Below are positions 24,171 through 40,382 of a DNA stretch of 64,000 bases, in pieces. Position 1 is the first letter of the stretch. Each line of letters begins with the position of its first letter. The translations under genes and the position numbers were made by a program. The notes under the pieces are model-generated. The model did no database searches. It saw only the letters and a program-made list of their open reading frames with translations, and had not been told where the DNA came from. This DNA is from Rhizobiaceae bacterium (lineage in GTDB: Bacteria; Pseudomonadota; Alphaproteobacteria; Rhizobiales; Rhizobiaceae), in contig JAHBYY010000001.1 of the NCBI GenBank assembly GCA_019635715.1, forward strand, positions 62,001 through 126,000. The letters are read 5' to 3'.

Positions 24171-25247
24171 ATGGCGACAGGCATGTCCACAGGCGTTCAC
24201 TCCGACCCGGCGCGCGCAGGCGCGCCGGGCCAGCTTCTGTTCAACCTGTTCCGCAACCTGCCGATGCTGCCGGTGGTGATCGTCGCGGCCATCCTGCTTT
24301 CGGCGACGGTGGACGGTTTTTCCTCCGGCGCGAACGCGCAGAACATCATGCGGCAGCTCTCCGTCATCCTCATCGCGGTTTCCGCGGAGACGCTGGTGCT
24401 GCTGATCGGTGGCATCGATCTGTCGATCGGCGCGATCATCGGCCTGGCCTCGGTGTGCGGCGCCTACACGATGCACGCCACCGATTCGGTGCTGCTCGGG
24501 CTGCTGGCCTGCCTCGCCGTCGGCGCGGCCGTCGGGGCCATCAACGGCATCGGCATCGCGGTGTTCGGCATCCAGCCCTTCATCATGACGTTCGGAACCA
24601 TGCTGACCGCCCGGGCGCTCGCCTTCCTGATCACCGGCGGCCGATCGGTCGGCCGGCTGCCCAAGGTGCTGCTCGAGGGCGGACGGACGGACGTGCTCGG
24701 CATTCCGCTGATCTTCATCCTCGGGCTTGCCGTCTGCGGTGTCATCGGCTTCATGCTCAGTCGAACGGCCTTCGGCCAGAAGATCTATCTCACCGGCTCG
24801 AATCCGCGCGCCGCGACGTTCTCGGGCATCAATGTCCCGCGCCTGACCTTCGCCATCTACCTGCTTTCAGGCACCCTGGCCGGACTGGCCGCCTTCGTGT
24901 TCATGATGCGGCTGGGCTCCGCCTCGCCGACGGCCGGCGATCCGCTCCTGCTGCAGATCATCGGGGCGGTCGTGCTCGGCGGCACGACCCTGACAGGCGG
25001 CGAGGGCGGCATCCTCCGCTCGATCACCGGCGCGCTGCTGATCGCCATGATCGTCAAGAGCCTCGAAATTCTCGGCGCGCAGTTCTGGGACCAGATGATC
25101 GTGATCGGCGTCCTGACGGCGCTCGGCAGCGCGCTGGGCTCATGGCTGGGCCGGCGGCGCGTCAGCGGCTCGGCGCGGCGACCGCCCAGCGACCCCGACC
25201 CGCCGCCGGCGGCGGCCAATCCGGGAAGCCTGTCCGGCTCCGGCTGA
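24171..25247 (+). CDS. Sugar ABC transporter permease, second (RbsC type)
   Basis: A 358-residue CUT2-family permease. The ATG at 24171 is preceded by GAGGACC. Family segments are LIGGIDLSIGAIIGLASVCG, GAINGIGIAVFGIQPFIMTF, GSNPRAATFSGINV and VVLGGTTLTGGEGGILRS. A proline-rich tail of about 25 residues follows the last helix and is absent from the first permease. It belongs with the ATPase at 19319 because no other ATPase lies near. The 131 bases after its stop, up to the convergent RTX gene, show no convincing terminator. Confidence 0.88.
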   Translation: MATGMSTGVHSDPARAGAPGQLLFNLFRNLPMLPVVIVAAILLSATVDGFSSGANAQNIMRQLSVILIAVSAETLVLLIGGIDLSIGAIIGLASVCGAYTMHATDSVLLGLLACLAVGAAVGAINGIGIAVFGIQPFIMTFGTMLTARALAFLITGGRSVGRLPKVLLEGGRTDVLGIPLIFILGLAVCGVIGFMLSRTAFGQKIYLTGSNPRAATFSGINVPRLTFAIYLLSGTLAGLAAFVFMMRLGSASPTAGDPLLLQIIGAVVLGGTTLTGGEGGILRSITGALLIAMIVKSLEILGAQFWDQMIVIGVLTALGSALGSWLGRRRVSGSARRPPSDPDPPPAAANPGSLSGSG

Positions 25248-25378: not shown

Positions 25379-27850
25379 CTATGTGATGACGAAATCGCCG
25401 GCGTTCATCGGCCCCGTGTTGCCGGTGATGACCGCGAAGGCCGTCCCGGCGGCTGCCCCCGTGCCGTCGGGATCGTAGTAGAGCCTGCCGGTATCGGTCT
25501 CCCAGATGATCCGGTCGCTGGCATCGCCGGCCTTGCCGCTGGTGTTGGCCCGGAAGGCGCTCGCCGCCAGCGCGCCGGCCGGCCCCGCTTTGGTGAAGAC
25601 CGACGAATTCAGAGAGATCAGATCGATCGACGAAAAGCCCTTGATGGTGTCGAGGTTGGTCGCCTCGTCCAGCGCATAGCTGAAGTAATAGATGTCGGCT
25701 CCTGTATTGCCGGCCAGCGTATCGTTGCCGAGGCCGCCGCTGATCCTGTCGGCGCCGGCGCCGCCGTTGATCTTGTCATTGCCGCCGTAGCCGCGCAGCG
25801 AATTGTTGCCGGCGTTGCCGTTGACCGTCTGGCCGAACTCGTTGCTGTAGAGCCCGATCGCCGCCGTGCCGGCGGCATTGGTCGTCTCAAGCACCTGGAT
25901 GTAGACGCCCTTGCCGACGGTGTAGTCGACCGCCGCCTCGACCGTATCGCTGCCGCCTCCCGCCGCTTCGACGATCTTTGTGCCGGAATTGTAGACGCGG
26001 AACGTGTCGTTGCCGCCGAGCCCGACCAGCGTGTCCGAGCCGCCCTTGCCGCCGTCCGACAGGATGTTGGCGCCGGCATTGCCGGTGATCTTCTGGGCCA
26101 CCTCGTTGCCGTAGAGGTTGATCTTGGCCGTACCCTTGGCGTTCGTCGTGGCCATCGTCTCGACGAAGACGCCGGCCACCAGATCGAAGGTCACGGCCGC
26201 CAGCACCGTGTCGTTTGCCCCTTGCGAAGCGCTCTCGACGATCTTGGTGGCGGAGTTGTAGACCCGGTAAGTGTCGTTGCCGCCCAGCCCGCGCAACGTA
26301 TCCGCGGCGCCCGTCCCTCCGTCGGAGATGAAGTTGGCGCCGGCATTGCCGGTGATCTCCTGCTTGAAACTGTTGCCGTAGAGGTTGATCGACCCGGTGC
26401 CCTTGGCGTTCGTGGTCGACAGGTGCTCGACATGGACGCCGGCCAGCAGATCGAAGGTGACCGATGCCTTGACCGTATCGTCGCCGCCATTCTTGAGTTC
26501 GATGACCTGATCGTTCGCGTTGTTGACGAAGAACGTATCGTTGCCGAGCCGTCCGAACATCGTATCGGCGCCACCCTTGCCGTCGATCTGGTCGTTGCCG
26601 TCCTGGCCGAACAGGGTTTCCGCGACGCTGGACCCCAGGATGGTCGAATCCGTCTTCAGTCCCGTCACCTGACCGTCGCCGACATCCGCCTGGATCGGCA
26701 GTTCGCGGGGGTCGAGGATCTGAAACTGAATGTCGTCGTAGCCATCCGAATCGTAGGTGAAGTAGGTCACCAGGATGCGCCCGTCCGTGGTGGTCCCCAG
26801 CTCCGGCTCGTAAGGTGTGTCGGCCGCGTCGCCGATGATGATCTCGTCGCCGATCTTTGCACCGGTCGTTCCGTCGAGAAGCTGCCCCCTGAGCCGGACC
26901 TCGTCGACATCCTGCCAGACGACGAAGAAGGTTCCGTCCTCGAGGCCGACGACGTCACCTTCCGACTGATAGCTTTCGCCGTCGCCGAGATCGATGAAGC
27001 CGCTTCGCTCGCTGCCGTCGCTGTTGAAGATCTGCGCGGCGATGGAGAACCCCTGGTGCTGCCAGACGACCACGAAGCCGCCGTCGGGGAGCGCCGAGAC
27101 CTTGGGATAATACCCCGGATCGCCGTCGGGCTCGGTGATGCTGACGGCCAGGCCATTGGAGCCGTCGGCGTTGCTCATCCGGAAGCCGATCCCGTCCTCC
27201 GTGTAGTCGTCGCCCACTTCCCATTGCTGGAAGACCGTCACATAGGTGCCGTTGACGAGCACGGCCGTGTCGTTGCGGGTCGGATAGGCGGAGGTCAATG
27301 CGTCGGTGGCAAGAACCCGCTCGGCTCCCGAAGCCACCAGGTCCGGCCCGAATTTCTGGCCCCGAATTGATTCGAGCCCGGTGTCGTCGTTCTCGCGCCG
27401 AAAGGTGACGAAGACCGAATTGTCGGCCTTGTCCACCTGAACCGAGGGAGGACCGAACAGGTTTCCATTCGTGTCGATGATGCTGGCTGAATCGACCAGA
27501 TCTCCAGCCGCGTCGTGACGTTCGATGTAGATCGCCGCCCCGCCGTCATAGGTCGCATAGGCGAGAACGAAGCCGCCGTCGTTGGTGGCGGCAATCGACG
27601 GCGCATACTCGTATTCATCGGAGAAGGCCGTGTTCAATTGAAAGGGGGAGCGGACGACGGAACCCTCCGCGTCATAGATCACGCCGCTGATATCCTGGCC
27701 GGCTCCGGGCGAAGTGACGTCGGACTGATCGGTATAGGCGACCAGAATATTGCCGTTGGACAGGCCGATGACCTTGAACCCGGCGCGTGCGTCCGAAGTG
27801 TTCGGATTGACCATTGTCTCGGGAAGCCACGTGGTCGGTGTCTGCGCCAT
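25379..27850 (-). CDS. Large RTX-type calcium-binding secreted protein
   Basis: An 823-residue protein without a cleavable signal peptide. Residues 1 to about 400 contain repeating aromatic and acidic beta-strand units such as DGGFVVVWQHQG, DGTFFVVWQD and DGRILVTYFTYD, suggesting a beta-propeller. From about 420 the protein has RTX units (GQDGNDQIDGKGGADTMFGR) and three long repeats of about 89 residues, seen as NAKGTGSINLYGN, NAKGTAKINLYGN and NAAGTAAIGLYSN. The final RTX block GGAGADRISGGLGNDTLAG is followed by the type I secretion-type C-terminus. Export by a type I system is expected, but no such transporter is encoded nearby. The function is unknown. Confidence 0.82.
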   Translation of the reverse strand: MAQTPTTWLPETMVNPNTSDARAGFKVIGLSNGNILVAYTDQSDVTSPGAGQDISGVIYDAEGSVVRSPFQLNTAFSDEYEYAPSIAATNDGGFVLAYATYDGGAAIYIERHDAAGDLVDSASIIDTNGNLFGPPSVQVDKADNSVFVTFRRENDDTGLESIRGQKFGPDLVASGAERVLATDALTSAYPTRNDTAVLVNGTYVTVFQQWEVGDDYTEDGIGFRMSNADGSNGLAVSITEPDGDPGYYPKVSALPDGGFVVVWQHQGFSIAAQIFNSDGSERSGFIDLGDGESYQSEGDVVGLEDGTFFVVWQDVDEVRLRGQLLDGTTGAKIGDEIIIGDAADTPYEPELGTTTDGRILVTYFTYDSDGYDDIQFQILDPRELPIQADVGDGQVTGLKTDSTILGSSVAETLFGQDGNDQIDGKGGADTMFGRLGNDTFFVNNANDQVIELKNGGDDTVKASVTFDLLAGVHVEHLSTTNAKGTGSINLYGNSFKQEITGNAGANFISDGGTGAADTLRGLGGNDTYRVYNSATKIVESASQGANDTVLAAVTFDLVAGVFVETMATTNAKGTAKINLYGNEVAQKITGNAGANILSDGGKGGSDTLVGLGGNDTFRVYNSGTKIVEAAGGGSDTVEAAVDYTVGKGVYIQVLETTNAAGTAAIGLYSNEFGQTVNGNAGNNSLRGYGGNDKINGGAGADRISGGLGNDTLAGNTGADIYYFSYALDEATNLDTIKGFSSIDLISLNSSVFTKAGPAGALAASAFRANTSGKAGDASDRIIWETDTGRLYYDPDGTGAAAGTAFAVITGNTGPMNAGDFVIT

Positions 27851-28403: not shown

Positions 28404-29405
28404 TCACCGGAAGGCAGGAATGACCTCGCGGCCGTAGCCGGCGATGATCTCCTCCTCCATGCCGCTGTCCAGATAGATGTTGAACTGCGTGACGCCGGCG
28501 TCCTTCAGCCGATGGATCTTGGCGATGTGCTCGTCCGGTTCGCCGAGCACGCAGAAATTCTCGACCACGTCGGGCGTGATGAAGTCGAGATACGGATTGC
28601 TGCTCTGCCCGTGCTTGGAATAGTCGTAGCCGCGCCGCTTCTCGATGTAGCTGGTCAGGCTGGCCGGAACGAGGCTGGTGTCCTTGCCGTATTTTTCGAC
28701 GATGTCGGCGACATGGTTGCCGACCATGGCCGGAAACCACTTGGTCGCCTCGATCGCCTTGTCCTTCGGTCCGAAATAGGCCGGGGCGCAGGACATGGAG
28801 CGGAAGGCCGACATGTCGCGGCCGGCCGCCTTGCCGGCGTCCAGGCACTGGTCGGTAAACCATTTGCACAGCCCCGGCTCGGCAATCTGCAGGACCACGC
28901 CGTCGGCGTGCTCGCCGGCCGTCTTGAGCGCCAGCGGGCCGTAGGCGGCGATCCAGGCCGGCATCTCGTGGCCGACCGCCCAGGGGAATTTTACCGGCTC
29001 GGGCGATTCGCCGTAGACGACCTCGTCGCCGCGCACCATCGCCTTGGTCTTGTGGATGAACTCGGCGACGCGCGCCAGCGTCGCCGGCTTGAAGCCCATG
29101 ACGCGCCGCGAAGAGTCTCCGCGGCCGACGCCGAGGTCGAAGCGGCCGCCGCTCTGCTTGGCCAGCGAGCCGAAGATCGACGCCGCCACCGACCAGTCGC
29201 GGACGTCCGGGTTGGTGACCAGCGGGCCGAAGCGCATGTCCTTCGTGTGTTCCATGCACATGGCGATGGCCGCGTAGCAGTCGCGCCAGAGGATGTGCGA
29301 ATCGTAGAACCAGCAATAGCTGAAGCCGGCATATTCGGCGGCGCGCACCAGATAGCGGGCCCGCTCGGCCTCGACGACGCCCTTGAAGGTGATCCCGAAT
29401 TCCAT
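28404..29405 (-). CDS. LLM-class, probably F420-dependent oxidoreductase
   Basis: A 333-residue TIM-barrel protein of the luciferase-like monooxygenase superfamily. Segments such as YCWFYDSHILWRDCYAAIA, RFGPLVTNPDVRDWSVAASI and GRFDLGVGRGDSSRRVMGFK match F420-dependent families that resemble methylenetetrahydromethanopterin reductase. I judge it closest to the CPS_4043-type group. AAGGGG precedes the ATG. It is the last gene of a minus-strand set that includes the F420 biosynthesis enzymes, supporting F420 rather than FMN as cofactor. The substrate is unknown. Confidence 0.8.
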   Translation of the reverse strand: MEFGITFKGVVEAERARYLVRAAEYAGFSYCWFYDSHILWRDCYAAIAMCMEHTKDMRFGPLVTNPDVRDWSVAASIFGSLAKQSGGRFDLGVGRGDSSRRVMGFKPATLARVAEFIHKTKAMVRGDEVVYGESPEPVKFPWAVGHEMPAWIAAYGPLALKTAGEHADGVVLQIAEPGLCKWFTDQCLDAGKAAGRDMSAFRSMSCAPAYFGPKDKAIEATKWFPAMVGNHVADIVEKYGKDTSLVPASLTSYIEKRRGYDYSKHGQSSNPYLDFITPDVVENFCVLGEPDEHIAKIHRLKDAGVTQFNIYLDSGMEEEIIAGYGREVIPAFR

Positions 29406-29429
29406 CGCTATTCCCCTTTATATTTAGAG

Positions 29430-29522
29430 CGCCGCCATCCTCGGGCTTGTCCCGAGGATCCGCCGCGCCTGAGCACTTGGCAAACGCAGCAGATCCTCGG
29501 GACAGGCCCGAGGATGGCGGCG
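29430..29522. repeat. Long inverted repeat (31-base arms)
   Basis: The left arm is 29430-29460 and the right arm 29492-29522. They are complementary over 31 bases with one mismatch. Core motifs are CCTCGGGCTTGTCCCGAGGA on the left and its complement on the right. The same core recurs at 30647-30763. Both lie in gaps on either side of the glucose-6-phosphate-dehydrogenase-like gene. Confidence 0.9.
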
Positions 29523-29573
29523 TTGCGGGTTGTGATCGGCATCAAGTTTCATCCGTAGAGCGCCCTCGCCCGA

Positions 29574-30581
29574 CTATCCGAACTGCTTGCGCAGCCTCGG
29601 CAGCACCTGTTCGCCGTAGAGTTTCAGAAACCGCTTCTGGTCGTGGCCAGGCGCGTGGAACACCAGGTGGTTGAAGCCCAGCTCGATATACGGCCTGATC
29701 TTCTCGACATGCTCGTCCGGATCGGTGGAGACGATCCAGCGCTTCGCGGCGCGCTCGATCGGCAGCGCGTCGGCGAGTTTCTCCATCTCCAGCGGGTCCT
29801 CGACCGACATCTTCTCCTCCGGCGACAGCGACAGCGCCGCCCAGAAGCGCGTGTCCTGAAGGGCCCGCTCGCGGTCGGTATCGAACGACACCTTCATCTC
29901 GATCATCCGGTCGATGGCGTCCGGCGCGCGGCCGCCTGCTTCCAGTCCGGCCGCGACATTGGGCAGCAGCGTCTCGCTGTAGAGCTCCGGCGCCTTGCCG
30001 CTGGTGCAGATGAAACCATCGGCGACACGGCCGGCATATTTGGCGATCTGCGGGCCCGCGCCCGCCACATAGATCAGGACGGGTTGGTCCGGCCGGTCGT
30101 AGATGGTGGCGTTCTCGGTCTGGTAGAACTGGCCCTCGAAGCTGACGCGCTCCTCGCAGAGCAGCCGGCGCATCAGGTCGACGGATTCGCGCAGCCGGGC
30201 GAAGCGCTCCTTGAGCTCCGGCCAGACGACTTTCGTCGCCGGCACCTCGTTGAGCGATTCGCCCGTGCCGATGCCAAGGATGAGGCGACCGGGGAACAGC
30301 GAGCCGAGTGTGCCGAAGGACTGCGCGACGATCGACGGATGGTAGCGGAAGGTCGGCGTCAGCACGCTGGTGCCCATCATGATGCGCGAGGTCTTCGCGC
30401 CCAGCGCGCCAAGCCAGGACATGGCGAAGGGCGCATGGCCGCCGGTGTGCCGCCACGGCTGGAAATGGTCGCTGATGAACACCGATTCGAAGCCGGCCGC
30501 CTCCGCCGCGACCGAATTGTCGAGGAGTTCCGAAGGGTTGAATTGTTCGGCGGACGCCTTGTAGCCAAGCCTCAGAGCCAT
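29574..30581 (-). CDS. F420-dependent glucose-6-phosphate dehydrogenase-like oxidoreductase
   Basis: A 335-residue LLM protein strikingly similar to mycobacterial FGD1. It opens [12 protein letters not shown], followed by [42 protein letters not shown] and [15 protein letters not shown]. Residues equivalent to the FGD1 active site are visible as His39, Trp43 and Glu108. FGD enzymes use F420 to oxidise glucose 6-phosphate and supply F420H2. The true substrate in this organism may differ, since family members vary at the phosphate-binding residues. AGGAGG lies before the ATG. It is flanked by two copies of an inverted repeat. Confidence 0.85.
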
Positions 30582-30646
30582 TTTGTCCTCCTGGCTTTTG
30601 AAATGCCTCTACGTGGCAATCTTGCCCTTCTCCGTGACACGATGGC

Positions 30647-30763
30647 GTCATCCTCGGGCTTGTCCGGAGGATCTGCCGAGGATGCCGCGTCCGGGGCTCG
30701 GCGCCTACGTAGGCGACGATCGGTCGCCGCAGGGTAGATCCTCGGGACAAGCCCGAGGATGAC
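30647..30763. repeat. Long inverted repeat (28-base arms), same family as 29430-29522
   Basis: Arms 30647-30674 and 30736-30763 pair over 28 bases with one mismatch and share the CCTCGGGCTTGTCC core with the repeat at 29430-29522. It occupies the 271-base gap between the CofC-CofE gene and the FGD-like gene, in which I see no other feature. Confidence 0.9.
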
Positions 30764-30852
30764 GGCGTTGGCACGGCCCGCCGAGCTCACATGCGACGGG
30801 CATGCGCTGGATACGTTCCGAGGCAGACGTGATGCCGATGCAGCAGGCTTGC

Positions 30853-32214
30853 TCACAGGAAAAGCTCCTGCTCGACCGGCCGCAGCACCTGGCGGGCGCT
30901 CGCCGCCGGATCATCCTGCCACGCGATGCCGCGCAGCACGACGACCGGCAGCCCCGCATCCTTCGCCATCAGCAGCCCGGCCGCCGCGGCGACCTCATCG
31001 GCGAAGGCCGGCAGCGTCGCCTTCAGGCCGCGTCCATAGGCGTCGGTACGCGTCGACCAGTCGACGAGAGCCGGCACGCCGGCGACGCCGATCGCGACGT
31101 TGACCAGGCCGTTGCGCCAGGGGCGGCCGAACGTGTCGGAAACGACGACGCCGATCGGCCCGCCGAAGCGCGCCTCCAGGCCGCTCCGGATGGCGCGGGC
31201 GCTGGCATCCGGATCCTCGGGCAGCAGCAGCAGCATTCCGGCGCGGCCATGGCCAAGGTTCGATTCGTCGATGCCGGCATTGGCACAGATCCAGCCGTGA
31301 CGGTGGCGGGTGATCAGCAGGCCCTCCGGCGGCTGGGCGCGGGCACGGACCACCGCGGTGGACTCCCGCAGGATGGACTCGACCTTGCGGGCATCCTTGC
31401 CGATCTCAGCGGCGAGCCGTTCCGCCTCGCCGGACGGTTCGAAGTCGGTGATCGGAACCATCCGCCCTTCGCTCTTCGACACGATCTTCTGGGCCACGAC
31501 CACGATGTCGCCGGGCACCAGCGGCACGGCGGCGTCAGCCGCATCCGCAATGATCGAGCCGAGTTCATCGCCGGCCGCGATCTCGGCGATGCCGGGAACG
31601 GCGAACACGCGCAGATTGTCGCCGGCGGAGGGAAGCCGAATGGCCTCCGCGAGATCCTCCGGGCGATCCACGTCGCGCGACAGATGCGTCAGGGCGAGCC
31701 GTGCAACGTCGAGCCCGGCGACCTTGGCCGCTGCTTCATGGGCGTCGGCCGATCGAGGCCCGAAGCGGAACGCGATCGCGCCGGGCGGGGAAAGCAGCAG
31801 GGCGTTGGTGCCGCCGTCGCGCGATGCCGCGATCACCACCGGCGCGCCTTGGCCCGCCGCGATAAGCTGCGTCAGCTCGTCGGCGGTCAGCATCGGGATG
31901 TCGGCATGCATGATGAGCAGCGATTGCGCGCCGATTGCCTGCGCCCAGCCGGCGGCGAAGCCGGCGGCGGCATTGATGTCGCCGCCGGACGCCTCCTCGA
32001 TCACCACCGCGCCCTGTGCCCGCGTCCGCTCGGCGATCGTCGCCGAGCGCGTCACCACGCCGACCGGGCCGTCATGGTGGGAGACAAGAAATGCGAGTGT
32101 GTTGTCGAAAAGGAGCAGCGCCAGGCTTTCGCGCGCATCATTGCCCAGGGCCGGCCGCAGCCGCGACTTGGCGTCGGCCGGGTCCTTCATCAGGATGGCG
32201 GCGGCGACCTTCAT
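30853..32214 (-). CDS. Bifunctional CofC-CofE: phospholactate-type guanylyltransferase fused to F420-0:glutamate ligase
   Basis: A 453-residue two-domain protein. Residues 1 to about 200 form a nucleotidyltransferase of the CofC/FbiD family: MKVAAAILMKDPADAKSRL, GDINAAAGFAAGW, LLIMHADIPML and LTHLSRDVDRPEDL. Residues from about 203 are CofE: LRVFAVPGIAEIAAGDELG, DIVVVAQKIVSKSEGRM, ICANAGIDESNLG and VVVSDTFGRPWRNGLVNVAI. The first domain activates the F420 side-chain acid with GTP; the second adds glutamates to F420-0. The two activities are usually separate proteins. The ATG overlaps the cofD stop (TGATG), so they are coupled. Fusion with CofC first differs from mycobacterial FbiB. Confidence 0.88.
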   Translation of the reverse strand: MKVAAAILMKDPADAKSRLRPALGNDARESLALLLFDNTLAFLVSHHDGPVGVVTRSATIAERTRAQGAVVIEEASGGDINAAAGFAAGWAQAIGAQSLLIMHADIPMLTADELTQLIAAGQGAPVVIAASRDGGTNALLLSPPGAIAFRFGPRSADAHEAAAKVAGLDVARLALTHLSRDVDRPEDLAEAIRLPSAGDNLRVFAVPGIAEIAAGDELGSIIADAADAAVPLVPGDIVVVAQKIVSKSEGRMVPITDFEPSGEAERLAAEIGKDARKVESILRESTAVVRARAQPPEGLLITRHRHGWICANAGIDESNLGHGRAGMLLLLPEDPDASARAIRSGLEARFGGPIGVVVSDTFGRPWRNGLVNVAIGVAGVPALVDWSTRTDAYGRGLKATLPAFADEVAAAAGLLMAKDAGLPVVVLRGIAWQDDPAASARQVLRPVEQELFL

Positions 32215-33185
32215 CAAGCGGCGCGCCCCGGCTGCACCGGCAGGGTCAGCGCGAACTCCAGCAGCTCGCGGGCCAGGCGTTCAGCGCCCGGCGGGCCGTT
32301 CATGAGGATGTCCGTCGACAGCACGGCGAGACCGTCCGCTTCGAGGGCGCCGGCATCGGCCCGGTCGCCCGCGTCGACCACGAAAGCATCGACGAGCCCG
32401 CCATAGCGGCGCGCCACCGCCGCCGACGTCACCTGGTGACCGAGATCGGCCATCAGCCGTGCCAGCGGTCCCTTCACCGCCTTGCCGCCGATCAGCGGCG
32501 ACACCCCGATGCAAGGGGCGGCGGCCGAGGCGATCGCCTCGCGCAGGCCCGAAACCGCGAGGATCGGTTCGATGGAGAGCAGCGGGTTGCTAGGGGCGAT
32601 GACGATCAGATCGGCCGCGGCCAGTGCCGCCAGTGCCGGGGCTCCCGGCCTCGCGTCGCCCGCCCCGTCGAAACGCAGTTCCTTCACCTTGGGCTTGCAG
32701 TGCCGGCCGACGAACCACGGCTGAAAATCCATCCAGCCCTCGTCGGTGTCGAGCCTTGTGCGCAGACGGTCGTCGGTGGCCGGCAGGATTTTCGCCGCCG
32801 CGCCGAAGCGCTTGGTCGCCTCCGCCGTGATCGCCGAAAGGCTGTCGCCCTCGCGCAGGCGCCAGGAGCGCCAGATGTGCAGGCCGAAGTCGGCATCGCC
32901 GAGCTTCATCCAGGTCGGCGCGCCGAGGTCGCGCAGCACGTCGAGCGCCTTGACGGTGTCGCCACCTACCCCCCAGCCCTGGCCGCGGTCGATGCGGTCG
33001 GACAGCGTGTAGAGCAGCGTGTCGATGTCGGGGCAGACGCGCAGCCCGTAGAACTCCTCGTCGTCGCCGACATTGGCGATCACGGTGAGCGACCCGGACG
33101 GCAGGGCCCGCGCCAGCCCCTCCGCCATGCGGGCGCCGCCGACGCCGCCGGCGAGCAGGACGACCGAGTTCCAGCGAACCGTCAC
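32214..33185 (-). CDS. cofD: CofD: 2-phospho-L-lactate (or analogue) transferase of F420 synthesis
   Basis: About 323 residues from a GTG start; a TTG 13 codons upstream is also possible. The N-terminus SVVLLAGGVGGARMAEGL and ANVGDDEEFYGLRVCPDIDT are the CofD/FbiA signature. DADFGLHIWRSWRLREGDSL, IAPSNPLLSIEPIL and VSPLIGGKAVKGPLARLMAD follow as in the family. CofD transfers the activated three-carbon acid from the guanylylated donor to the deazaflavin Fo, making F420-0 or its dehydro form. It lies directly upstream of the CofC-CofE fusion with overlapping stop and start. The donor (phospholactate, phosphoenolpyruvate or 3-phosphoglycerate) is not evident. Confidence 0.9.
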   Translation of the reverse strand: MTVRWNSVVLLAGGVGGARMAEGLARALPSGSLTVIANVGDDEEFYGLRVCPDIDTLLYTLSDRIDRGQGWGVGGDTVKALDVLRDLGAPTWMKLGDADFGLHIWRSWRLREGDSLSAITAEATKRFGAAAKILPATDDRLRTRLDTDEGWMDFQPWFVGRHCKPKVKELRFDGAGDARPGAPALAALAAADLIVIAPSNPLLSIEPILAVSGLREAIASAAAPCIGVSPLIGGKAVKGPLARLMADLGHQVTSAAVARRYGGLVDAFVVDAGDRADAGALEADGLAVLSTDILMNGPPGAERLARELLEFALTLPVQPGRAA

Positions 33186-33241
33186 GACGAGTGCCCGGCG
33201 GATTGCTTCGGGTCGATGACGCAACAGGCTCGGTTGCGCGC

Positions 33242-33388
33242 AAGCACCCCCTCACCGACCCTTCGGGCCACCTCTCCCCCTGCCCGGGGGAGAGGAACCC
33301 AAGCTGGATGAGCGTCCGCATGGCGGCAGCGATTCCTCTCCCCCGGGCAGGGGGAGAGGTGGCCCAAAGGGTCGGTGAGGGGGTGCTT
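33242..33388. repeat. Very long inverted repeat (55-base arms)
   Basis: Arms 33242-33296 and 33334-33388 are complementary over 55 bases with one mismatch, with a 37-base centre. The sequence contains CACCCCCTCACCGACCCTTC and CTCTCCCCCTGCCCGGGGGA, a motif I recognise from rhizobial intergenic spaces. It fills the gap between cofH and cofD and could fold into a very stable hairpin in the transcript. Confidence 0.92.
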
Positions 33389-33402
33389 CAACGCCGGTGC
33401 GT

Positions 33403-34653
33403 TCAAGGCGTCGGACCTTCGGTGGATCGCGCGACACCACCGCCGCGCCGGTCGAGAAATGCAACCGGGCTGGCCCCCTCGGCACGCCCGACCAGCGGCG
33501 CGATCTCCGCCGGATCGTGGTCGGAAAAGTCTTCCACGACCTCGTACAGCGTGTTGCGCTGGACCGGAACGCGGCCGGCCGAGCGGATGATGCGCACCAT
33601 CTCGGCGGGCGTGATCTCCTGCCCGTGCTTCGCCCCCGCTGCGCGCGAAATGCTCTCGTTCATCAGCGTGCCGCCGAGATCGTTGACGCCGCAGTCGAGC
33701 ATGGCGCGCGCCGTCTCCGGCCCGAGCTTCACCCAGGACACCTGGATGTTGTCGATATGGCCGGCCAGCATCAGCCGCGCCACCGCGTGCATGCGCACAT
33801 TCTCCAGCGCGGTCGGGCCGGGACGCGCCGAAGGATGGTTGCGGTAGAGCCGCGTCTGCTCGTGGACGAAGCCGAGCGGTACCAGCTCGGTGAAGCCGCC
33901 GGTGTCCTTCTGGATCGTGCGCAGCCGGTCGATGTGGGCCGCCCAATGCGCCGGCCCGTCGATATGGCCGTACATGATGGTGGCGGTCGAGCGAATGCCG
34001 GCGGCATGCGCGGCGCGGATGATGCGCTCCCATTCGTCGGCCGAGAGCTTGTTACGCGTCAGTTGCAGGCGGATCTCGGTGTCCAGGATCTCCGCCGCAG
34101 TGCCCGGCATGGAGCCGAGGCCCGCTTCCTTCAATGCCGCCAGATATTCGGACAGCGGCATGCGGGTCCTGCTGACTCCATACCAGATCTCGAAAGGCGA
34201 GAAGGCGTGGACGTGCATGCGCGGCACGCGCTCCTTCACGGCCCGCAGGAGCTGGAAATAGTGGTCGCCCGGTATGTCGGGATGAAGCCCGCCCTGGATG
34301 CAGACCTCCGTGGCGCCGCGCCGCCAGGCTTCCTCGGCGCGGTCGGCGACCGTTTCGAGCGACAGGAGTTCGGCGGTCTCGGCGTCCTTGCGGACCCCGA
34401 AATTGCAGAACTGGCAAGCCATGTAGCAGACGTTGGTGAAGTTGATGTTGCGCACTGTGACGAAGGTCACCCGGTCGCCGGCGCGCCGGCGCCGGACCTC
34501 GTCAGCGGTCGCGACCAGGGCCGCCAGGTCGGCTCCCTCGACGGAGAACAGCATCTCGCCGTCGGCACGGCTGATTTCCCGGCCTTCCAACGCCGCTTCA
34601 AGGATAGGGGCAATGGCGGGGGTCGCCGTGGAAATCGCCTTCTCCGGCGCCAT
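33403..34653 (-). CDS. cofH: CofH: radical SAM enzyme of Fo synthesis (5-amino-6-(D-ribitylamino)uracil transferase)
   Basis: About 416 residues. The radical SAM cluster motif CX3CX2C is Cys76, Cys80 and Cys83 in NVCYMACQFCNFG, following FVTVRNINFTN. CIQGGLHPDIPGDHY, MHVHAFSPFEI, SMPGTAAEILDTEI and GVNDLGGTLMNESISR identify it as CofH rather than CofG (the C-terminal half of FbiC). CofH joins a tyrosine-derived fragment to the ribityl uracil. The frame extends to 34833, but that part translates an inverted repeat of low-complexity sequence, so the ATG at 34653 is preferred. Confidence 0.9.
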   Translation of the reverse strand: MAPEKAISTATPAIAPILEAALEGREISRADGEMLFSVEGADLAALVATADEVRRRRAGDRVTFVTVRNINFTNVCYMACQFCNFGVRKDAETAELLSLETVADRAEEAWRRGATEVCIQGGLHPDIPGDHYFQLLRAVKERVPRMHVHAFSPFEIWYGVSRTRMPLSEYLAALKEAGLGSMPGTAAEILDTEIRLQLTRNKLSADEWERIIRAAHAAGIRSTATIMYGHIDGPAHWAAHIDRLRTIQKDTGGFTELVPLGFVHEQTRLYRNHPSARPGPTALENVRMHAVARLMLAGHIDNIQVSWVKLGPETARAMLDCGVNDLGGTLMNESISRAAGAKHGQEITPAEMVRIIRSAGRVPVQRNTLYEVVEDFSDHDPAEIAPLVGRAEGASPVAFLDRRGGGVARSTEGPTP

Positions 34654-34686
34654 GTTTGCTGCTTCGGACAGGACTTCTGTGACATC

Positions 34687-34780
34687 ACCCCCACCCCTTG
34701 CCCCTCCCCGCAGGGGGGAGGGGGATTCTGCAACGCCGGCGCGCCCCTCCCCCTTGTGGGGAGGGGTAAGGGGTGAGGGT
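34687..34780. repeat. Inverted repeat (37-base arms) inside a spurious 5' extension of cofH
   Basis: Arms 34687-34723 and 34744-34780 pair over 37 bases with four mismatches. The sequence is G/C runs of the type CCCCTCCCC and GGGGAGGGG. It lies in the 183-base gap between cofG and cofH and would be translated only if cofH began at 34833. Confidence 0.85.
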
Positions 34781-34836
34781 GAACCGCTCGGACTTCCCAT
34801 GTCTGACGCCTCGAACGAAGGTTGGACCCGCATCGC

Positions 34837-35961
34837 TCAGCCCACGAACTGGTCGCGCGCCAGCCCGTCGGGCCGCGCCATGCCTGCAAGGATCGCGTGG
34901 AGCGGGGCCGTCTCGACGCCGAGATGGGCGGGATAGACGGTCAGGCGCTCCACCAGATCGTAGCCGCGGGCGCGCGTGCGCCGCGCCAGTTCGGCAACGG
35001 CCGGCCAGGCGCGCTCCGGATTGATGTGATCGGCGGTCAGCGGCGACACGCCACCCCAGTCGTTGATCCCGCAGTCGACGTAATCCTCGAACGCGTCCTC
35101 CAGGTTGGGGGGCGCTTGCAGGCTGATGGACGGGTCGAGGACCAGCCGCGCCATCGTCAGGGTGCGCAGCATGTCGTCGCGCGCCGGCTCCGGCCAGTCC
35201 GCCATGGCCGTTCCGCGCTTGGCGCGGAAGTTCTGCACGATCACTTCCTGCACATGGCCGTGGCGCCGATGCAGCTCGTTGATGGCCACCAGGCTTTCGA
35301 CCCGTTCGTCCCAGGTCTCGCCGATGCCGATCAGGATGCCGGTGGTGAAGGGCACGCCGAGACGACCGGCGCTGTCGATGGTGCGCAGGCGCAGCCGCGG
35401 CGCCTTGTCCGGACAGGCATGGTGCGCCATGCCGGGCCGGCTCAGGCGGCGGCTGACATTCTCCAGCATCATGCCCATGGAGCCGGAGACGTCGCGCAGC
35501 CGGCGGATCTCCTCCTCGGTCAGCGTTCCCGCATTGACGTGCGGGACCAGCGACGTGTTGTCCAGCACCAGCCTGCAGGCATCGACCAGATAGTCGACGG
35601 TCGAGCCGTAGCCGAGGCGCGCGAGCGCATCGCGGGCTTCCGAGTAGCGCAGCTCCGGCCGTTCGCCGAGCGAGAACAACGCCTCCTTGCAGCCCAGCGC
35701 CTGGCCTTGCGACGCCACTTTCAGCACCTCGTCCGGCGTCATGAAATTGGCTCCGGCGTCGCCGGGATGCTTGACGAAGGTGCAATAGCCGCAGGTGTTG
35801 CGGCACATGGTGGTCAGCGGAATGAAGACCTTGCGGGAGTAGCTGATCGACCGGCCCCAATGGCAGTCGCGCAGCCCGGACGCGACATGCCTGAGCTGCG
35901 CAAAACCCTCAGCCGGGAGATCGCGGGCGGCGCACGCTTCGGAACCGCTGAACAACCCCAC
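34837..35961 (-). CDS. cofG: CofG: radical SAM enzyme, 7,8-didemethyl-8-hydroxy-5-deazariboflavin synthase subunit
   Basis: A 374-residue protein with radical SAM motif Cys53, Cys57 and Cys60 in TTMCRNTCGYCTF, preceded by ISYSRKVFIPL. CKEALFSLGERPELRYSEAR, HVNAGTLTEEEIRRLR, FTTGILIGIGETWDERVESL and DWGGVSPLTADHINPE fit CofG, the N-terminal half of FbiC. With CofH it produces the deazaflavin Fo. The start is GTG with GAGGA eight bases before it. It is the first F420-biosynthesis gene of the set; cofH follows after a gap containing a large inverted repeat. Confidence 0.92.
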   Translation of the reverse strand: MGLFSGSEACAARDLPAEGFAQLRHVASGLRDCHWGRSISYSRKVFIPLTTMCRNTCGYCTFVKHPGDAGANFMTPDEVLKVASQGQALGCKEALFSLGERPELRYSEARDALARLGYGSTVDYLVDACRLVLDNTSLVPHVNAGTLTEEEIRRLRDVSGSMGMMLENVSRRLSRPGMAHHACPDKAPRLRLRTIDSAGRLGVPFTTGILIGIGETWDERVESLVAINELHRRHGHVQEVIVQNFRAKRGTAMADWPEPARDDMLRTLTMARLVLDPSISLQAPPNLEDAFEDYVDCGINDWGGVSPLTADHINPERAWPAVAELARRTRARGYDLVERLTVYPAHLGVETAPLHAILAGMARPDGLARDQFVG

Positions 35962-35997
35962 TGGAATCCTCTGAGTCAGATTTTGACCATCCGATCA

Positions 35998-36026
35998 AAG
36001 TTTGAATGTTTGGCGGCGCAAGTCAA
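35998..36026 (-). promoter_or_regulatory. Candidate promoter of the cof genes
   Basis: Reading the minus strand, TTGACT (36026-36021) and AAACTT (36003-35998) are spaced by 17 bases and lie about 40 bases before the cofG start. The -35 is good, the -10 poor. The gap 35962-36158 contains no gene. Confidence 0.35.
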
Positions 36027-36158
36027 TCGCTAAACCGCAGGCCGCTGCAACTCCGTGCGTGGGACCGGCCGACGGGCACGCCGCGCCGGAGCGCGGCGCC
36101 GTCATCCGACGGAACGGCAAAGTCAGCCTGCCCCGAACCGCCGGCCAGGGCGGCCTCC

Positions 36159-37178
36159 TCAGCGCCAGCCGAGCGCCGGCGCGACATGCTTCAGGATCGA
36201 CTCGATCACATGCGCGTTGTAGTCGACGCCGAGCTGGTTCGGCACGGTCAGCAGCAGGGTGTCGGCCTCGGCGATGGCCTCGTCCTCGGCGAGCTGCTTC
36301 ACCAGAACGTCCGGTTCGGCCGCGTAGGAGCGACCGAAGACCGCGAGCGTATCGGCCTCGATATAGCCGAAATGATCGTCGCTCTCCGAGCGTCCGAAAT
36401 AGGCGCGGTCGCGGTCGTCCATCAGCGCGAAGATGCTGCGCGACACGGAGACGCGCGGCTCGCGCTGATGACCGGCAGCCTTCCACGCGGCACGGAAGGC
36501 GCGAATCTGCGCCGCCTGCTGGACGTGCAGGGGTTTTCCGCCCTCGTCGAACTTCAAGGTCGAGCTCTGAAGGTTCATGCCGAGCCGGCCGGCCCATTCG
36601 GCCGTGGCATTGGTGGCCGCACCCCACCAGATGCGGTCGCGCAGTCCCTCGGAATGCGGCTCGACACGCAGCATGCCGGGAGGATTGGGGAACATCGGCC
36701 GCGGATTCGGCTGTGCGAAGCCCTCACCTTTCAGTATCTGCAGGAAGACTTCGGTATGGCGGCGCGCCATGTCGGCGTCCGTCTGGCCGTCCTCGGGCTG
36801 GTAGCCGAAATAGCGCCAGCCGTCGATCACCTGCTCGGGCGAGCCGCGGCTGATGCCGAGCTGCAGGCGGCCGCCGGCGATCAGATCGGCGGAGCCGGCG
36901 TCCTCGACCATGTAGAGCGGATTCTCGTAGCGCATGTCGATGACGGCCGTGCCGATCTCGATGCGGCTGGTCCGCGCCCCGACCGCCGCCAGCAGCGGGA
37001 ACGGGGATGCAAGCTGCCGTGCGAAGTGGTGGACGCGGAAATAGGCGCCGTCGGCGCCGAGTTCCTCGGCGGCGACCGCCAGGTCGATCGACTGCAGCAG
37101 GGCGTCCGAAGCGGACCGCGTCGCCGAGTGCGGCGACGGTGTCCAATGCCCGAACGAGAGGAATCCGATCTTCTTCAT
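36159..37178 (-). CDS. LLM-class flavin/F420-dependent oxidoreductase
   Basis: A 339-residue luciferase-like protein starting MKKIGFLSFGHWTPSP, with AAGGACAG before the ATG. Segments include ELGADGAYFRVHHFARQLAS, RIEIGTAVIDMRYENPLYMV and GGRLQLGISRGSPEQVIDGW, typical of bacterial luciferase-like monooxygenases. It is not close to the two other LLM proteins in this region, and FMN could be its cofactor instead of F420. It sits 197 bases upstream of cofG on the same strand, between the cytochrome bd and F420 genes, so membership in the F420 set is likely but not certain. Confidence 0.75.
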   Translation of the reverse strand: MKKIGFLSFGHWTPSPHSATRSASDALLQSIDLAVAAEELGADGAYFRVHHFARQLASPFPLLAAVGARTSRIEIGTAVIDMRYENPLYMVEDAGSADLIAGGRLQLGISRGSPEQVIDGWRYFGYQPEDGQTDADMARRHTEVFLQILKGEGFAQPNPRPMFPNPPGMLRVEPHSEGLRDRIWWGAATNATAEWAGRLGMNLQSSTLKFDEGGKPLHVQQAAQIRAFRAAWKAAGHQREPRVSVSRSIFALMDDRDRAYFGRSESDDHFGYIEADTLAVFGRSYAAEPDVLVKQLAEDEAIAEADTLLLTVPNQLGVDYNAHVIESILKHVAPALGWR

Positions 37179-37238
37179 GTCACTGTCCTTCGAGCCGCAA
37201 AGGGCTCCGCGAAAAACGGTCGGCATCCCTGAATGCAC

Positions 37239-37530: not shown

Positions 37531-38691
37531 TCAATAGGCCGAGTGACCGGCGTCCTCGACGCTCTTCTCGCTGACCTTGCCCCACAGCACCCGATAGACC
37601 CAGGCGGTGTAGGCGAGGATCAGCGGCAGGAAGATCGCCGTCGCGATCAGCATGTTGCGTAGCGTGGCGCGGCTCGACGACGCGTCGAACACGGTCAGCG
37701 AGTGGTCGGGATTGGTGCTCGACGGCAGGAGCACCGGGAACATGGCGAGGCCGACGGTCGCCACGATGCAGACGACCCCGAGTTTCGACGCCAGGAAGGT
37801 CAGCCCCTCGCGGCCGCCCCGGAAGCCGAGCCAGGCGGCGAGCGGCGCGGCGATGCCGAGCGCCGGCACGATCCAGAGCAGCGGCCAGGCTTGGAAGTTG
37901 GCGAGCCAGGCGGCCGGATCGGCCACGACCGTCTTCAGCAGAGGGTTGGACGGCCCATCCCAGACGATCTCGCTGGTGACGCGATAGCCGCCGAGCAGGC
38001 CGGCCCAGACCAGAGCGCCGCCGCCGGCGAACAGCACGGCCGTCGCGATCGCCGCCCGGCCGCCGAAGGCCTTGGCGCGCTGCGACACGATTCCGTCCGC
38101 CTTGAACGCCAGCCAGGCTGCGCCGTGCATGACGATCATCGACAGCGACACCAGCCCGCAATACAGCGCCAACGGGTTCAACAGCCCGAACAGATTGCCT
38201 TCATAGACGGGCCTGAGTTCCGCGGTGAGATGGAACGGCACGCCCTGCAGCGTGTTGCCGATCGCCACGCCGAAGATCAGCGCGGGCACCGCGCCGCCGA
38301 TGAACAGCGCCCAGTCCCAACGTGCCCGCCAGGCAGGATCGGGCCTCTTGGAGCGGTACTTGAACCCGACGGGACGCAGGATCATCGCCGCGAGGATCAG
38401 GAACATCGCCAGGTAGAAGCCGGAGAAGCTCAGCGCGTAGAGCGCCGGCCAGGCGGCGAAGATCGACCCGCCGCCCAGCACGAACCAGACCTGGTTGCCT
38501 TCCCAGACCGGTCCGATCGTGTTGATGGCGACGCGCCGCTCGATGTCGGTGCGGGCGGCGAACGGCAGCAGCGCGCCGACGCCCATGTCGAAGCCGTCGG
38601 TCGCGGCGAAGGCGATGAGCAGCACGCCGAGCAGGCCCCACCAGACGATGCGCAGGGTCTGATAGTCGAAGAGGAAGTCGACGAAGGTCAT
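37531..38691 (-). CDS. cydB: Cytochrome bd ubiquinol oxidase subunit II (CydB)
   Basis: A 386-residue membrane protein with about nine hydrophobic segments. Family motifs are WWGLLGVLLIAFAATDGFDM (residues about 17-36), PVWEGNQVWFVLGGG, AALYALSFSG-like helix sequences and RPVGFKYRSKR. The TDGFDMG and PVWEGNQVW motifs are diagnostic. It forms the bd-type quinol oxidase with CydA, reducing oxygen to water with high affinity. cydA ends 13 bases upstream and cydX follows 12 bases downstream. Confidence 0.95.
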   Translation of the reverse strand: MTFVDFLFDYQTLRIVWWGLLGVLLIAFAATDGFDMGVGALLPFAARTDIERRVAINTIGPVWEGNQVWFVLGGGSIFAAWPALYALSFSGFYLAMFLILAAMILRPVGFKYRSKRPDPAWRARWDWALFIGGAVPALIFGVAIGNTLQGVPFHLTAELRPVYEGNLFGLLNPLALYCGLVSLSMIVMHGAAWLAFKADGIVSQRAKAFGGRAAIATAVLFAGGGALVWAGLLGGYRVTSEIVWDGPSNPLLKTVVADPAAWLANFQAWPLLWIVPALGIAAPLAAWLGFRGGREGLTFLASKLGVVCIVATVGLAMFPVLLPSSTNPDHSLTVFDASSSRATLRNMLIATAIFLPLILAYTAWVYRVLWGKVSEKSVEDAGHSAY

Positions 38692-38704
38692 GTCTGCCTC
38701 GTTG

Positions 38705-40282
38705 TCACTCGGCGGGGTGCAATTGGCCGGAGCGGCGCTGCGGCGTCATCATCCGGTCGACGACCTGGGATATCTCCGGCCCCTTGCGGATTGCCGCCAG
38801 CATGAGGCGCACCTCGATCACCGCCAGCGCCCCATAGAGCAGCGTGAAGCCGGCTATGGTGATCACCAGGTTCCAGACGCCGAGTTGCGACGTGGCGAGG
38901 AAGGTCGGCAGGACGCCTTCGATGATCCAGGGCTGCCGGCCGAACTCCGCGACGAACCAGCCGACCTCGGCGGCGATCCACGGCAGCGGCATGGCGAACA
39001 GCGCCAGCTTGAACAGCCAGCGCGGCGCCTCCGCCTCGCGCATCGTGTGCCAGAGCGACAGGCCGAAGACGCCGAGCAGCACGAAGCCGCACGCCACCAT
39101 GATGCGGAACGAGAAGAACAGCCAGGGCACGCCGGGCACGGTGGACCAGGCGGCATCCTTGATGTTCTGCTCGGTCGCCTGGCGGGGATCCTCGACGAAG
39201 CGCTTGAGCAGCAGCGCATAGCCCATGTCCTTGCCCGACGCCTTCAGGATTTCCCGCGCCTCCGCGTCCGACCGATCTACCTTCAGCCGCTCGAGCGCGT
39301 CGTAGGCGGGTATGCCGTCTCGGATGCGCTGTTCGGCATGCTCGACGAGCTGCTCGATGCCGGGAATCTGCTTGTCGATCGAGCGCGTCCCGATGATGCC
39401 CATCACCCAGGGGATGTGGATTGCGAAATAGGTCTTGCGATCCGCCAGGCTCGGGATGCCGACCGCGGTGAAGGAGGCCGGAGCCGGCTCCGTCTCCCAC
39501 ATGGCCTCGATCGCCGCGAGCTTCATCTTCTGGTTGTCGGTCAGCGCATAGCCGCTCTCGTCGCCGAGCACGATGACGGACAGCGCCGACGCCACGCCGA
39601 AGGCCGAGGCGACGACGAAGGAGCGCCTGGCCAGCTCGACATGCCGGTTGCGCAGCATGTACCAGGCGGAGACGCCGAGGACGAAGACCGCGCCGCAGAC
39701 ATAGCCTGCCGACACCGTATGGACGAACTTCGCCTGCGCGACGGGATTGAACAGGACGGCGACGAAATCCGTCACCTCCATGCGCATGGTGTCGGGGTTG
39801 AACTCGGCGCCGACCGGGTTCTGCATCCAGCCATTGGCGATCAGGATCCACAGCGCCGAGAAATTGGTGGCAATCGCCATCAGCCAGGTCACCGCGAGGT
39901 GGGCGCGCGCCGAAAGCCGCTCCCAGCCGAAGAAGAACAGGCCGATGAAGGTCGCTTCGAGGAAGAAGGCCATCAGGCCTTCGATGGCCAGCGGGGCGCC
40001 GAAGACGTCGCCGACATAGTGGGAGTAATAGGCCCAGTTCATGCCGAACTGGAATTCCATGGTCAGGCCCGTGGCGACGCCGAGGGCGAAGTTGATGCCA
40101 AACAACACGCCCCAGAATTTGGTCATGTCGCGCCAGATGGTGCGGCGCGTCATCACATAGACGGTCTCCATCATGGCGATCAGGATGGAGAGGCCGATCG
40201 TCAGGGGTACGAAGAGAAAATGATAAAGCGCCGTCAACGCGAACTGCAGCCGCGAAAGCTCGACGACGAGAGGATCAAACAT
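38705..40282 (-). CDS. cydA: Cytochrome bd ubiquinol oxidase subunit I (CydA)
   Basis: A 525-residue membrane protein. ALTALYHFLFVPLTIGLSIL carries the haem b595 ligand histidine (His21 here). FWGVLFGINFALGVATGLTM and FVHTVSAGYVCG give further haem-binding segments. The quinol-binding Q-loop with IPGIEQLVEHAE is present, and GRQPWIIEGVLPT is the conserved C-terminal motif. The length and extended Q-loop fit the long-loop subfamily. The start has AAGGACG upstream. The 100-base gap to the divergent cydD gene should hold both promoters; no clear FNR box was seen there. Confidence 0.96.
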   Translation of the reverse strand: MFDPLVVELSRLQFALTALYHFLFVPLTIGLSILIAMMETVYVMTRRTIWRDMTKFWGVLFGINFALGVATGLTMEFQFGMNWAYYSHYVGDVFGAPLAIEGLMAFFLEATFIGLFFFGWERLSARAHLAVTWLMAIATNFSALWILIANGWMQNPVGAEFNPDTMRMEVTDFVAVLFNPVAQAKFVHTVSAGYVCGAVFVLGVSAWYMLRNRHVELARRSFVVASAFGVASALSVIVLGDESGYALTDNQKMKLAAIEAMWETEPAPASFTAVGIPSLADRKTYFAIHIPWVMGIIGTRSIDKQIPGIEQLVEHAEQRIRDGIPAYDALERLKVDRSDAEAREILKASGKDMGYALLLKRFVEDPRQATEQNIKDAAWSTVPGVPWLFFSFRIMVACGFVLLGVFGLSLWHTMREAEAPRWLFKLALFAMPLPWIAAEVGWFVAEFGRQPWIIEGVLPTFLATSQLGVWNLVITIAGFTLLYGALAVIEVRLMLAAIRKGPEISQVVDRMMTPQRRSGQLHPAE

Positions 40283-40382
40283 GGCAACGTCCTTGCTGGA
40301 TGCCTGTTATCAGATCGGCTTCGGCTGGAGCCATCCGAATACGTTCAATCTGCACAAGGCGACGATGTATGAGAAGTGGGGC

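Follow-up and report, generated by a model that had tools for sequence, protein, structure and literature searches.

Gene content of the locus

The window, a stretch of DNA of 64,000 nucleotides, carries six minus-strand genes for the synthesis and predicted use of coenzyme F420, with a third LLM protein upstream of them and palindromic repeats at four of their junctions. The source is probably a rhizobial bacterium. The features are as follows, with profile scores in bits and the curated NCBIfam cut-off in brackets.

36159..37238 (start probably 37178), minus strand: third LLM protein, Bac_luciferase, outside the F420 set
34837..35961, minus strand: CofG, radical SAM FO synthase subunit; TIGR03550, 459.2 bits (213.35); CX3CX2C
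34685..34782: palindromic repeat I3, CofG/CofH junction
33403..34833, minus strand: CofH, radical SAM FO synthase subunit; TIGR03551, 499.7 bits (374.1)
33242..33388: palindromic repeat I1, gap from CofH to CofD
32214..33224, minus strand: CofD, side-chain transfer to FO; TIGR01819, 297 bits (257.45); GGVGG
30853..32217, minus strand: CofC:CofE fusion, ORF of 454 amino acids; TIGR03552 and TIGR01916 above cut-off in one ORF
30646..30764: palindromic repeat I7, gap from CofC:CofE to FGD
29574..30581, minus strand: FGD; TIGR03554, 505.3 bits (420); 61% identity to Mtb FGD1
29430..29522: palindromic repeat I2, gap from FGD to TIGR03842
28404..29405, minus strand: TIGR03842 LLM-class oxidoreductase, candidate F420H2 user; 473.9 bits (295.45)

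In the profile search the curated NCBIfam cut-offs were exceeded by all seven domains (CofG, CofH, CofD, CofC, CofE, FGD and TIGR03842), and by this measure the five Cof proteins belong to the F420 biosynthesis pathway. The first-pass annotation had placed all the Cof genes on one strand with an FGD-like and an LLM gene, which was confirmed, and the motifs that it had called intact were all found: CX3CX2C at position 53 of CofG and position 136 of CofH, GGVGG at position 26 of CofD, and His39, Trp43 and Glu108 of FGD. For CofH, the MqnC and MqnE models remained below cut-off. The alphaproteobacterial setting is likewise supported, judging from the named relatives.

The ORF of CofH shares the frame of CofG and starts at 34833, a single codon past the CofG stop; a single-polypeptide FbiC is ruled out by the stop codon that separates the two. 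Because residues 18–50 or so of CofH coincide with the palindromic repeat at 34685–34782, translation may start downstream of the first codon of the ORF. Palindromes at four junctions may also disturb co-transcription of the F420 genes. A promoter and terminator scan of the locus gave no signal exceeding that of shuffled sequences.

The third LLM protein is a genuine Bac_luciferase, the top NCBIfam match of which is an FMN-type model (92.6 bits; 412.9). Its start at 37178 is plausible: close copies exist in 12 other genomes, and in ten of these the aligned region sets in at residues 16–21 of the longer ORF. The protein had been proposed as an F420 partner, a role that was rejected: within the family it is carried both by genomes that have CofE and by genomes that lack it, including copies of 83–88% identity in three CofE-less genomes of the same genus, and it is simply adjacent to the set. 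No close copy was found in the cof-bearing genomes G422, G022 and G108. The 'local F420 economy' suggested earlier has the support of gene association for FGD and TIGR03842, but not for this protein. The window genome encodes 17 LLM proteins. In the scans of these, no protein other than FGD and TIGR03842 attained the cut-off of an F420-class model; for five of the 17 (L001–L004 and L012) the matches were listed down to E = 1e-60, so that weaker F420-class matches would be invisible. For the cydB gene in the context of the locus, close relatives (59–61%) were found in G420 and G421 only, among the seven genomes searched.

The CofC:CofE fusion and the side chain

The fusion comprises a guanylyltransferase (about residues 1–200) and an F420-0:glutamate ligase (about residues 200–454), matched by TIGR03552 at residues 7–195 (148.1 bits; 105) and by TIGR01916 at residues 203–453 (258 bits; 180.65). 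The same fusion is present in five further loci (L052–L055 and L154). Its predicted structure, made with six sequences, has a mean pLDDT of 71 and a pTM of 0.51, and no claim is built on it.

According to published work, Ser or Thr at a diagnostic position of CofC (Mrhiz S162) accompanies the use of 3-PG. This position is Gly in the window protein in a multiple alignment of 39 loci including the window, and across 84 loci it is Gly in 82, Ala in one, uncovered in one and Ser or Thr in none. A 3-PG side-chain route is thus unsupported, and CofC looks to be of the 2-PL/PEP type, the residue not separating PEP from 2-PL.

A PEP-derived side chain would require a dehydro-F420-0 reductase. The set had been described as complete, which holds for the Cof enzymes but not for this reductase, of which none is recognizable. 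The FbiB-C reductase domain is above cut-off in none of the 63 CofE-bearing genomes sampled from the order (best match in the window genome, 26.6 bits), whereas genomes of Amycolatopsis and Nakamurella pass; the survey thereby exposes dehydro-F420-0 reduction as a step without a recognized enzyme across these genomes. The window genome has two Pfam nitroreductases, the top NCBIfam matches of which, BluB and PRK10828, are both below cut-off. If CofC takes PEP, these results together with the Gly at the diagnostic position would be consistent with cells that stop at dehydro-F420 or employ another reductase, which we regard as possible but short of probable. However, the residue is equally compatible with 2-PL, and a genuine stand-alone FbiE reductase could escape the search, because a genome of Sphaerobacteraceae, kin of the group with described stand-alone reductases, has a best FbiB-C match of only 57 bits.

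Predicted charging and use of F420 across the order

Residues H39, W43 and E108 of the window FGD align to Mtb H40, W44 and E109, and the residues aligned to Mtb K198, K259 and R283 are kept; we take these to be the catalytic and phosphate residues of FGD. Together with a score above the TIGR03554 equivalog cut-off, they place the protein in the FGD family by sequence. However, the kept phosphate residues do not decide between FGD and FSD, because the phosphate-contact residues were reported to be alike in both classes (Sci Rep 2018; PMC6279831). An FSD-like enzyme with a wider sugar-6-phosphate range, rather than a strict glucose-6-phosphate dehydrogenase, would agree with these shared contacts and with the Met at Mtb position 260, where 18 of 98 aligned rows have His (a few genomes being counted twice). 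We consider it rather unlikely, given 505 bits against an equivalog cut-off of 420 and the identity to Mtb FGD1.

The survey covered 397 genomes of the order, 63 with CofE and 334 without. Among the 63, the NADPH:F420 reductase Fno alone was found in 41, FGD alone in 19, both in one and neither in two. FGD changes at least five times across starred branches of the tree, and the mutual exclusion of FGD and Fno rests on five independent pairs, of which on average 3.7 go in opposite directions, 1.3 show no difference and none goes in the same direction (median p = 0.125). The sample suggests a rule whereby F420-making genomes of the order reduce the cofactor with either glucose 6-phosphate or NADPH, rarely having both enzymes (1/63). 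No Fno (TIGR01915) above cut-off was found in the window genome or in G420–G423; a threshold of E = 0.001 brought up no TIGR01915 match in the window genome (G000) either, which at 85% completeness is not proof of absence. Its F420_oxidored-family proteins L134 and L135 were discarded as Fno, given this lack of a TIGR01915 match and no NCBIfam match at 1e-8 for either.

F420 chemistry is poorly assigned outside actinobacteria and methanogens, and the survey singles out TIGR03842, which is above cut-off only beside CofE: 39 of the 397 genomes carry it, corresponding to 39 of the 63 with CofE and none of the 334 without. The gene lies within 6 kb of cofE in 37 of its 39 occurrences. A search by the name of the family in the literature available for this analysis found no paper. 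The nearest relative in the PDB by both fold and sequence is Mer, which could point to a bacterial methylene-tetrahydropterin reductase resembling the archaeal enzyme. This appears very improbable: the identity is only 26–29%, the Mer model TIGR03555 gives 122.6 bits (348.7), and the residue aligned to Mer Glu6, the position mutated in PDB entry 8qq8 (E6Q) and presumably catalytic, is Thr or Cys in all 28 aligned members. Assignment as Mer is thus unsupported.

The strict tie to CofE and the place inside the operon would also suit a dehydro-F420-0 reductase that replaces FbiE and is fed F420H2 by the neighbouring FGD or Fno. If true, TIGR03842 would be a further solution to this reduction, unrelated to the nitroreductase FbiE, and the frequent order of cofE followed by an F420-charging enzyme and TIGR03842 would be explained. 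Nitroreductase matches of at least 39 bits occur in five of the 39 genomes with TIGR03842 and in 12 of the 24 without (p = 0.003), a weak anti-correlation also seen at 30 bits (p = 0.05) and 50 bits (p = 0.02), these p values ignoring kinship. However, 12 of the 63 CofE-bearing genomes have neither at 39 bits, and 17 at 50 bits, so that TIGR03842 and FbiE are unsupported as clean complements; furthermore, we know of no LLM-fold enzyme for this reaction. We judge this role very unlikely and retain TIGR03842 as a candidate F420H2 user.

Proposed working and origin of the operon

From sequence and gene context, the locus is probably a functional F420 operon in which FGD charges the cofactor in place of Fno and TIGR03842 spends F420H2. 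CofG and CofH would produce FO; the CofC half of the fusion (N-terminal) would activate a phospho-C3 acid with GTP, CofD would transfer the activated side chain to FO, and the CofE half (C-terminal) would attach the glutamate tail. FGD would reduce F420 to F420H2 by oxidizing glucose 6-phosphate or another sugar 6-phosphate akin to it, substituting for the Fno of sister operons, and TIGR03842 would most likely consume F420H2.

F420 synthesis and Fgd in alphaproteobacteria have already been published (PMC8498797); what is new here is the arrangement, with a cofC–cofE fusion and FGD at the Fno place in a known operon type. The cofG-cofH-cofD-cofC-cofE-npdG-TIGR03842 operons of two annotated plasmids, Paracoccus alcaliphilus p402633 and one of Leisingera aquaemixtae, share the order of the synthesis genes, the unfused CofG and CofH and the terminal TIGR03842, but the window differs in its cofC–cofE fusion and in having FGD in place of npdG (Fno). 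The FbiC-type proteobacterial clusters (such as Enterovirga L056 and Roseibium L110) also combine the pathway with FGD; unlike the window, they have CofG–CofH as one protein, as do 48 of the 60 loci in which CofG and CofH could both be located, and CofC and CofE not fused together. The same chemistry is expected of the actinobacterial FbiA/B/C/D and FGD1 set, whereas the window lacks the FbiB reductase domain and the FbiC fusion, and its CofE has another fusion partner. The Mycetohabitans 3PG-F420 pathway likewise has CofC, CofD and CofE without a recognized reductase, but the window CofC lacks the serine tied to 3-PG use.

The order CofG-CofH-CofD-CofC:E-FGD-TIGR03842 is identical in four named relatives (L052–L055, L054 being Corticibacterium sp. 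UT-5YL-CI-8). Three Fno-type loci share the leading genes: in L154 these are followed by a fused CofC:E, a different LLM protein with a match above cut-off to TIGR03619, an F420-class model, and then Fno, and in L156 and L160 by separate CofC and CofE, Fno and then TIGR03842. Outside the fused clade, the window CofG and CofH are 60–64% identical to those of L156 and L160 and at most 56% and 54% identical, respectively, to other loci among the matches listed.

The gene trees conflict. The CofE tree unites the six fused proteins in a single clade (100/100), separate from a 74-row clade (100/100) that contains most other proteobacterial CofE; CofE of L024 and L155 also falls outside the latter. 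The branch that joins the fused clade to the Fno-type CofG/CofH operons carries no star (83/64). In the FGD tree the FGD of the window clade is nested in a 62-row, mostly proteobacterial set (97/92), and the next FGDs among the matches listed (73–79% identity) belong to other cluster types. The window TIGR03842 is 81–89% identical to a 14-locus group (13 of FGD-bearing genomes plus G415), 67–72% identical to Fno-type loci and only 70–71% identical to the FGD-bearing loci L104 and L110, while the FGD of L155, a member of the 14-locus group, is only 69% identical to that of the window. Owing to these mixed identities, the genes downstream resemble a patchwork. The operon looks to be derived from the cofGHDCE-npdG-TIGR03842 type; in the window clade cofC and cofE appear to have been fused, and an FGD akin to those of other proteobacterial clusters appears to stand in the place of npdG, the swap presumably having run from Fno to FGD.

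Composition of the F420 operon and its surroundings

The genes on the minus strand at 28404-37238 encode, from the first to the last transcribed, an LLM protein, CofG, CofH, CofD, CofC fused to CofE, FGD and an LLM protein of the TIGR03842 family. In searches with NCBIfam and Pfam, every Cof domain, FGD and TIGR03842 exceeded the curated NCBIfam cut-offs, which bears out the complete Cof set with FGD and TIGR03842 claimed in the first-pass annotation; the motifs that it listed were all found in the window proteins. On CofH, the rival models from the futalosine pathway, MqnC and MqnE, remained below their own cut-offs. The operon is real and not a chance finding, and it is probably functional. 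The F420 literature drawn on here comprises PMC8498797, PMC8764529, PMC6450877 and PMC6279831. The operon is known in kind; what is new is the CofC:CofE fusion, the replacement of Fno (npdG, NADPH:F420 reductase) by FGD and the counted tie between TIGR03842 and F420 synthesis. The source assembly comprises 4.57 Mb in 151 contigs (85% complete), with the window in contig C1; its nearest named relatives (Mesorhizobium sp. MAG-134, Rhizobiaceae MAGs and Corticibacterium sp.) suggest that it belongs to the order Hyphomicrobiales.

The inclusion of the third LLM protein (36159-37238, minus strand) in the F420 set was not upheld. Copies with 83-88% identity are conserved in three same-genus genomes without CofE. 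Across the family, close copies occur in two CofE-positive genomes (G289 and G011) and four CofE-negative genomes (G006, G010, G012 and G017), with no close copy in the cof-bearing genomes G422, G022 and G108. Its membership was rejected on these grounds, and it is also missing from the operons of L052-L055, four loci compared with the window. Its top NCBIfam match, TIGR04027, is far below the cut-off; the protein is an operon neighbour and probably an FMN-type enzyme.

The operon contains four inverted repeats, one at the CofG/CofH junction and three in gaps, whose arms measure 32-56 bases. Part of the CofG/CofH repeat is found again at another place in the genome (L138; 92% over 37 bases). 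The gap between CofC:CofE and FGD is 271 bases in the window and 19-84 bases in L052-L055. Between FGD and TIGR03842 it is 168 bases in the window, 35 in L052, 36 in L053, 212 in L054 and 188 in L055; the last two values show that other loci, too, can be widely spaced here. These repeats and other features of the window are as follows.

Palindromic repeats and neighbouring features
34685-34782, 33242-33388, 30646-30764, 29430-29522: palindromic repeats at four operon junctions
37531-43552: cydA-cydB on the minus strand and, divergent from it, an ABC pair resembling cydD/cydC, neither member of which reaches its cut-off
25379-27850: protein of 823 aa lying downstream of the operon; its RTX calcium-binding repeat is all that Pfam recognises
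44768-46744: protein similar to D-apionate lactonase ApnL, under cut-off (634.7 of 750 bits)
9858-18830: cellulose-synthesis-like cluster (BcsN, PilZ-domain glycosyltransferase, GH8 enzyme)
21984-25247: two adjoining sugar-type periplasmic binding proteins, then a permease

Near relatives of CydB occur in G420 and G421, and the three same-genus genomes have distant ones only. The ApnL-like gene is flanked by a 4-hydroxybutyrate dehydrogenase-family gene and a sugar-type ABC transporter ATPase.

Gene order, fusions and the alternation of FGD and Fno

The distribution of CofE is patchy. Each of the three same-genus genomes examined lacks it, and in a set of 41, made up of the window genome and 40 relatives, seven carry it. 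Of the 397 genomes sampled from the order, 63 gave a CofE match, above the cut-off in 62. Plasmids from Paracoccus, Leisingera and Variovorax (L272, L273 and L274) carry complete cof gene sets, and a match to CofC:CofE was found in 56 plasmid records, 17 of which are predicted to be conjugative.

The order from CofG to TIGR03842 in L052-L055 is identical to that of the window. Among the 130 loci compared for fusions, some possibly of one species, CofG and CofH were both matched in 60 (48 fused as FbiC, 12 separate) and CofC and CofE in 80, of which five were fused (L052-L055 and L154), giving six CofC:CofE fusions with the window. This fusion is not named in the portions of the F420 literature found on CofC and CofE, and could still be in print. 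In L087, L104 and L173, CofC is in frame with CofG-CofH without an intervening stop, in ORFs of about 1000 residues, so that these seem to be triple CofC:CofG:CofH fusions.

Two annotated plasmids (Paracoccus alcaliphilus and Leisingera aquaemixtae) carry cofG-cofH-cofD-cofC-cofE-npdG-TIGR03842, with 4-base overlaps from cofG through npdG. In L154, CofG-CofH-CofD-CofC:CofE is followed by another LLM protein (TIGR03619; 170.1 versus a cut-off of 166.9 bits) and then by Fno (171.3 versus 149.8 bits). These arrangements make the window operon a member of the npdG type in which CofC and CofE are fused and FGD stands in the place of Fno.

Fno was searched for in the 63 CofE-positive genomes and seven further genomes. 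FGD was above the cut-off in 20 of the 63 and Fno in 42, with both in one (G257) and neither in two: G195, whose CofE is broken and under the cut-off, and G415, which has an FGD-like protein (219.7 bits) beside CofE. No CofE-negative genome among the 397 sampled had FGD above the cut-off. The two enzymes are therefore rarely found within a single genome of the sample (Fisher p 6.6e-13, kinship disregarded). With G195 left out, the CofE tree of the remaining 62 genomes has starred branches that require at least five changes for FGD and four for Fno. Across five independent pairs, Fno differed in the opposite direction to FGD in a mean of 3.7, did not differ in 1.3 and never changed the same way (median p 0.125), so that the exclusion is strong by count but not significant with kinship removed.

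Conflict between gene trees

In the CofE tree, the six fused proteins form one clade (100/100), apart from a 74-row clade (100/100) containing most other proteobacterial CofE, and are joined to a 16-row group of Fno-type CofG/CofH loci by an unstarred branch (83/64). L154, fused and Fno-bearing, groups with L054 and L055 (100/76, unstarred); L024 and L155 also fall outside the 74-row clade, next to Chloroflexi rows. The closest CofG and CofH to those of the window outside the fused clade are from L160 and L156. In the FGD tree, whose bootstrap is not settled, the window clade (five rows, 97/93) lies inside a mostly proteobacterial set of 62 rows (97/92), outside which other gammaproteobacterial FGDs are placed. 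The TIGR03842 tree unites the window clade with L155, from an FGD-type genome, at 100/100. The FGD of L155 is only 69% identical to the window type, and FGD and TIGR03842 therefore need not share a donor. Identity of TIGR03842 to the window clade is 81-89% for 14 loci, most of them outside the TIGR03842 tree, 67-72% for Fno-type loci and 70-71% for the FGD-bearing L104 and L110.

TIGR03842 and the side-chain route

TIGR03842 was above the cut-off in 39 of the 397 genomes, all CofE-positive, and lay within 6 kb of cofE in 37; 24 of the 63 CofE-positive genomes lack it. It accompanies FGD in 14 of the 39 and Fno in 24, the remaining one (G415) having neither above the cut-off. The protein is highly conserved (mean column identity of 80% over 28 sequences). 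The structures nearest to its model (pLDDT 85.7) are of Mer, archaeal methylene-tetrahydropterin reductase (TM to query 0.75-0.80, identity 26-29%); none of the 28 sequences keeps Mer Glu6, 15 having Thr and 13 Cys at that position. No paper was found under the names CPS_4043 or TIGR03842 in literature that excludes most subscription journals.

The PEP route to the side chain requires a dehydro-F420-0 reductase. The cut-off of FbiB-C, which is of this type, was passed by none of the 63 CofE-positive genomes and by 2 of the 27 genomes behind the named loci, both actinobacteria. Because the best match in a Sphaerobacteraceae genome reached just 57 bits, a weak match may be a true FbiE. At the position of Mrhiz S162, CofC has Gly in all 39 sequences of the multiple alignment, including that of the window; going by PMC8764529 (mBio 2022), this residue suggests 2-PL or PEP, and not 3-PG, as the substrate. 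In pairwise alignments to the window, Gly occupied this position in 82 of 84 loci, L098 having Ala and L264 not being covered.
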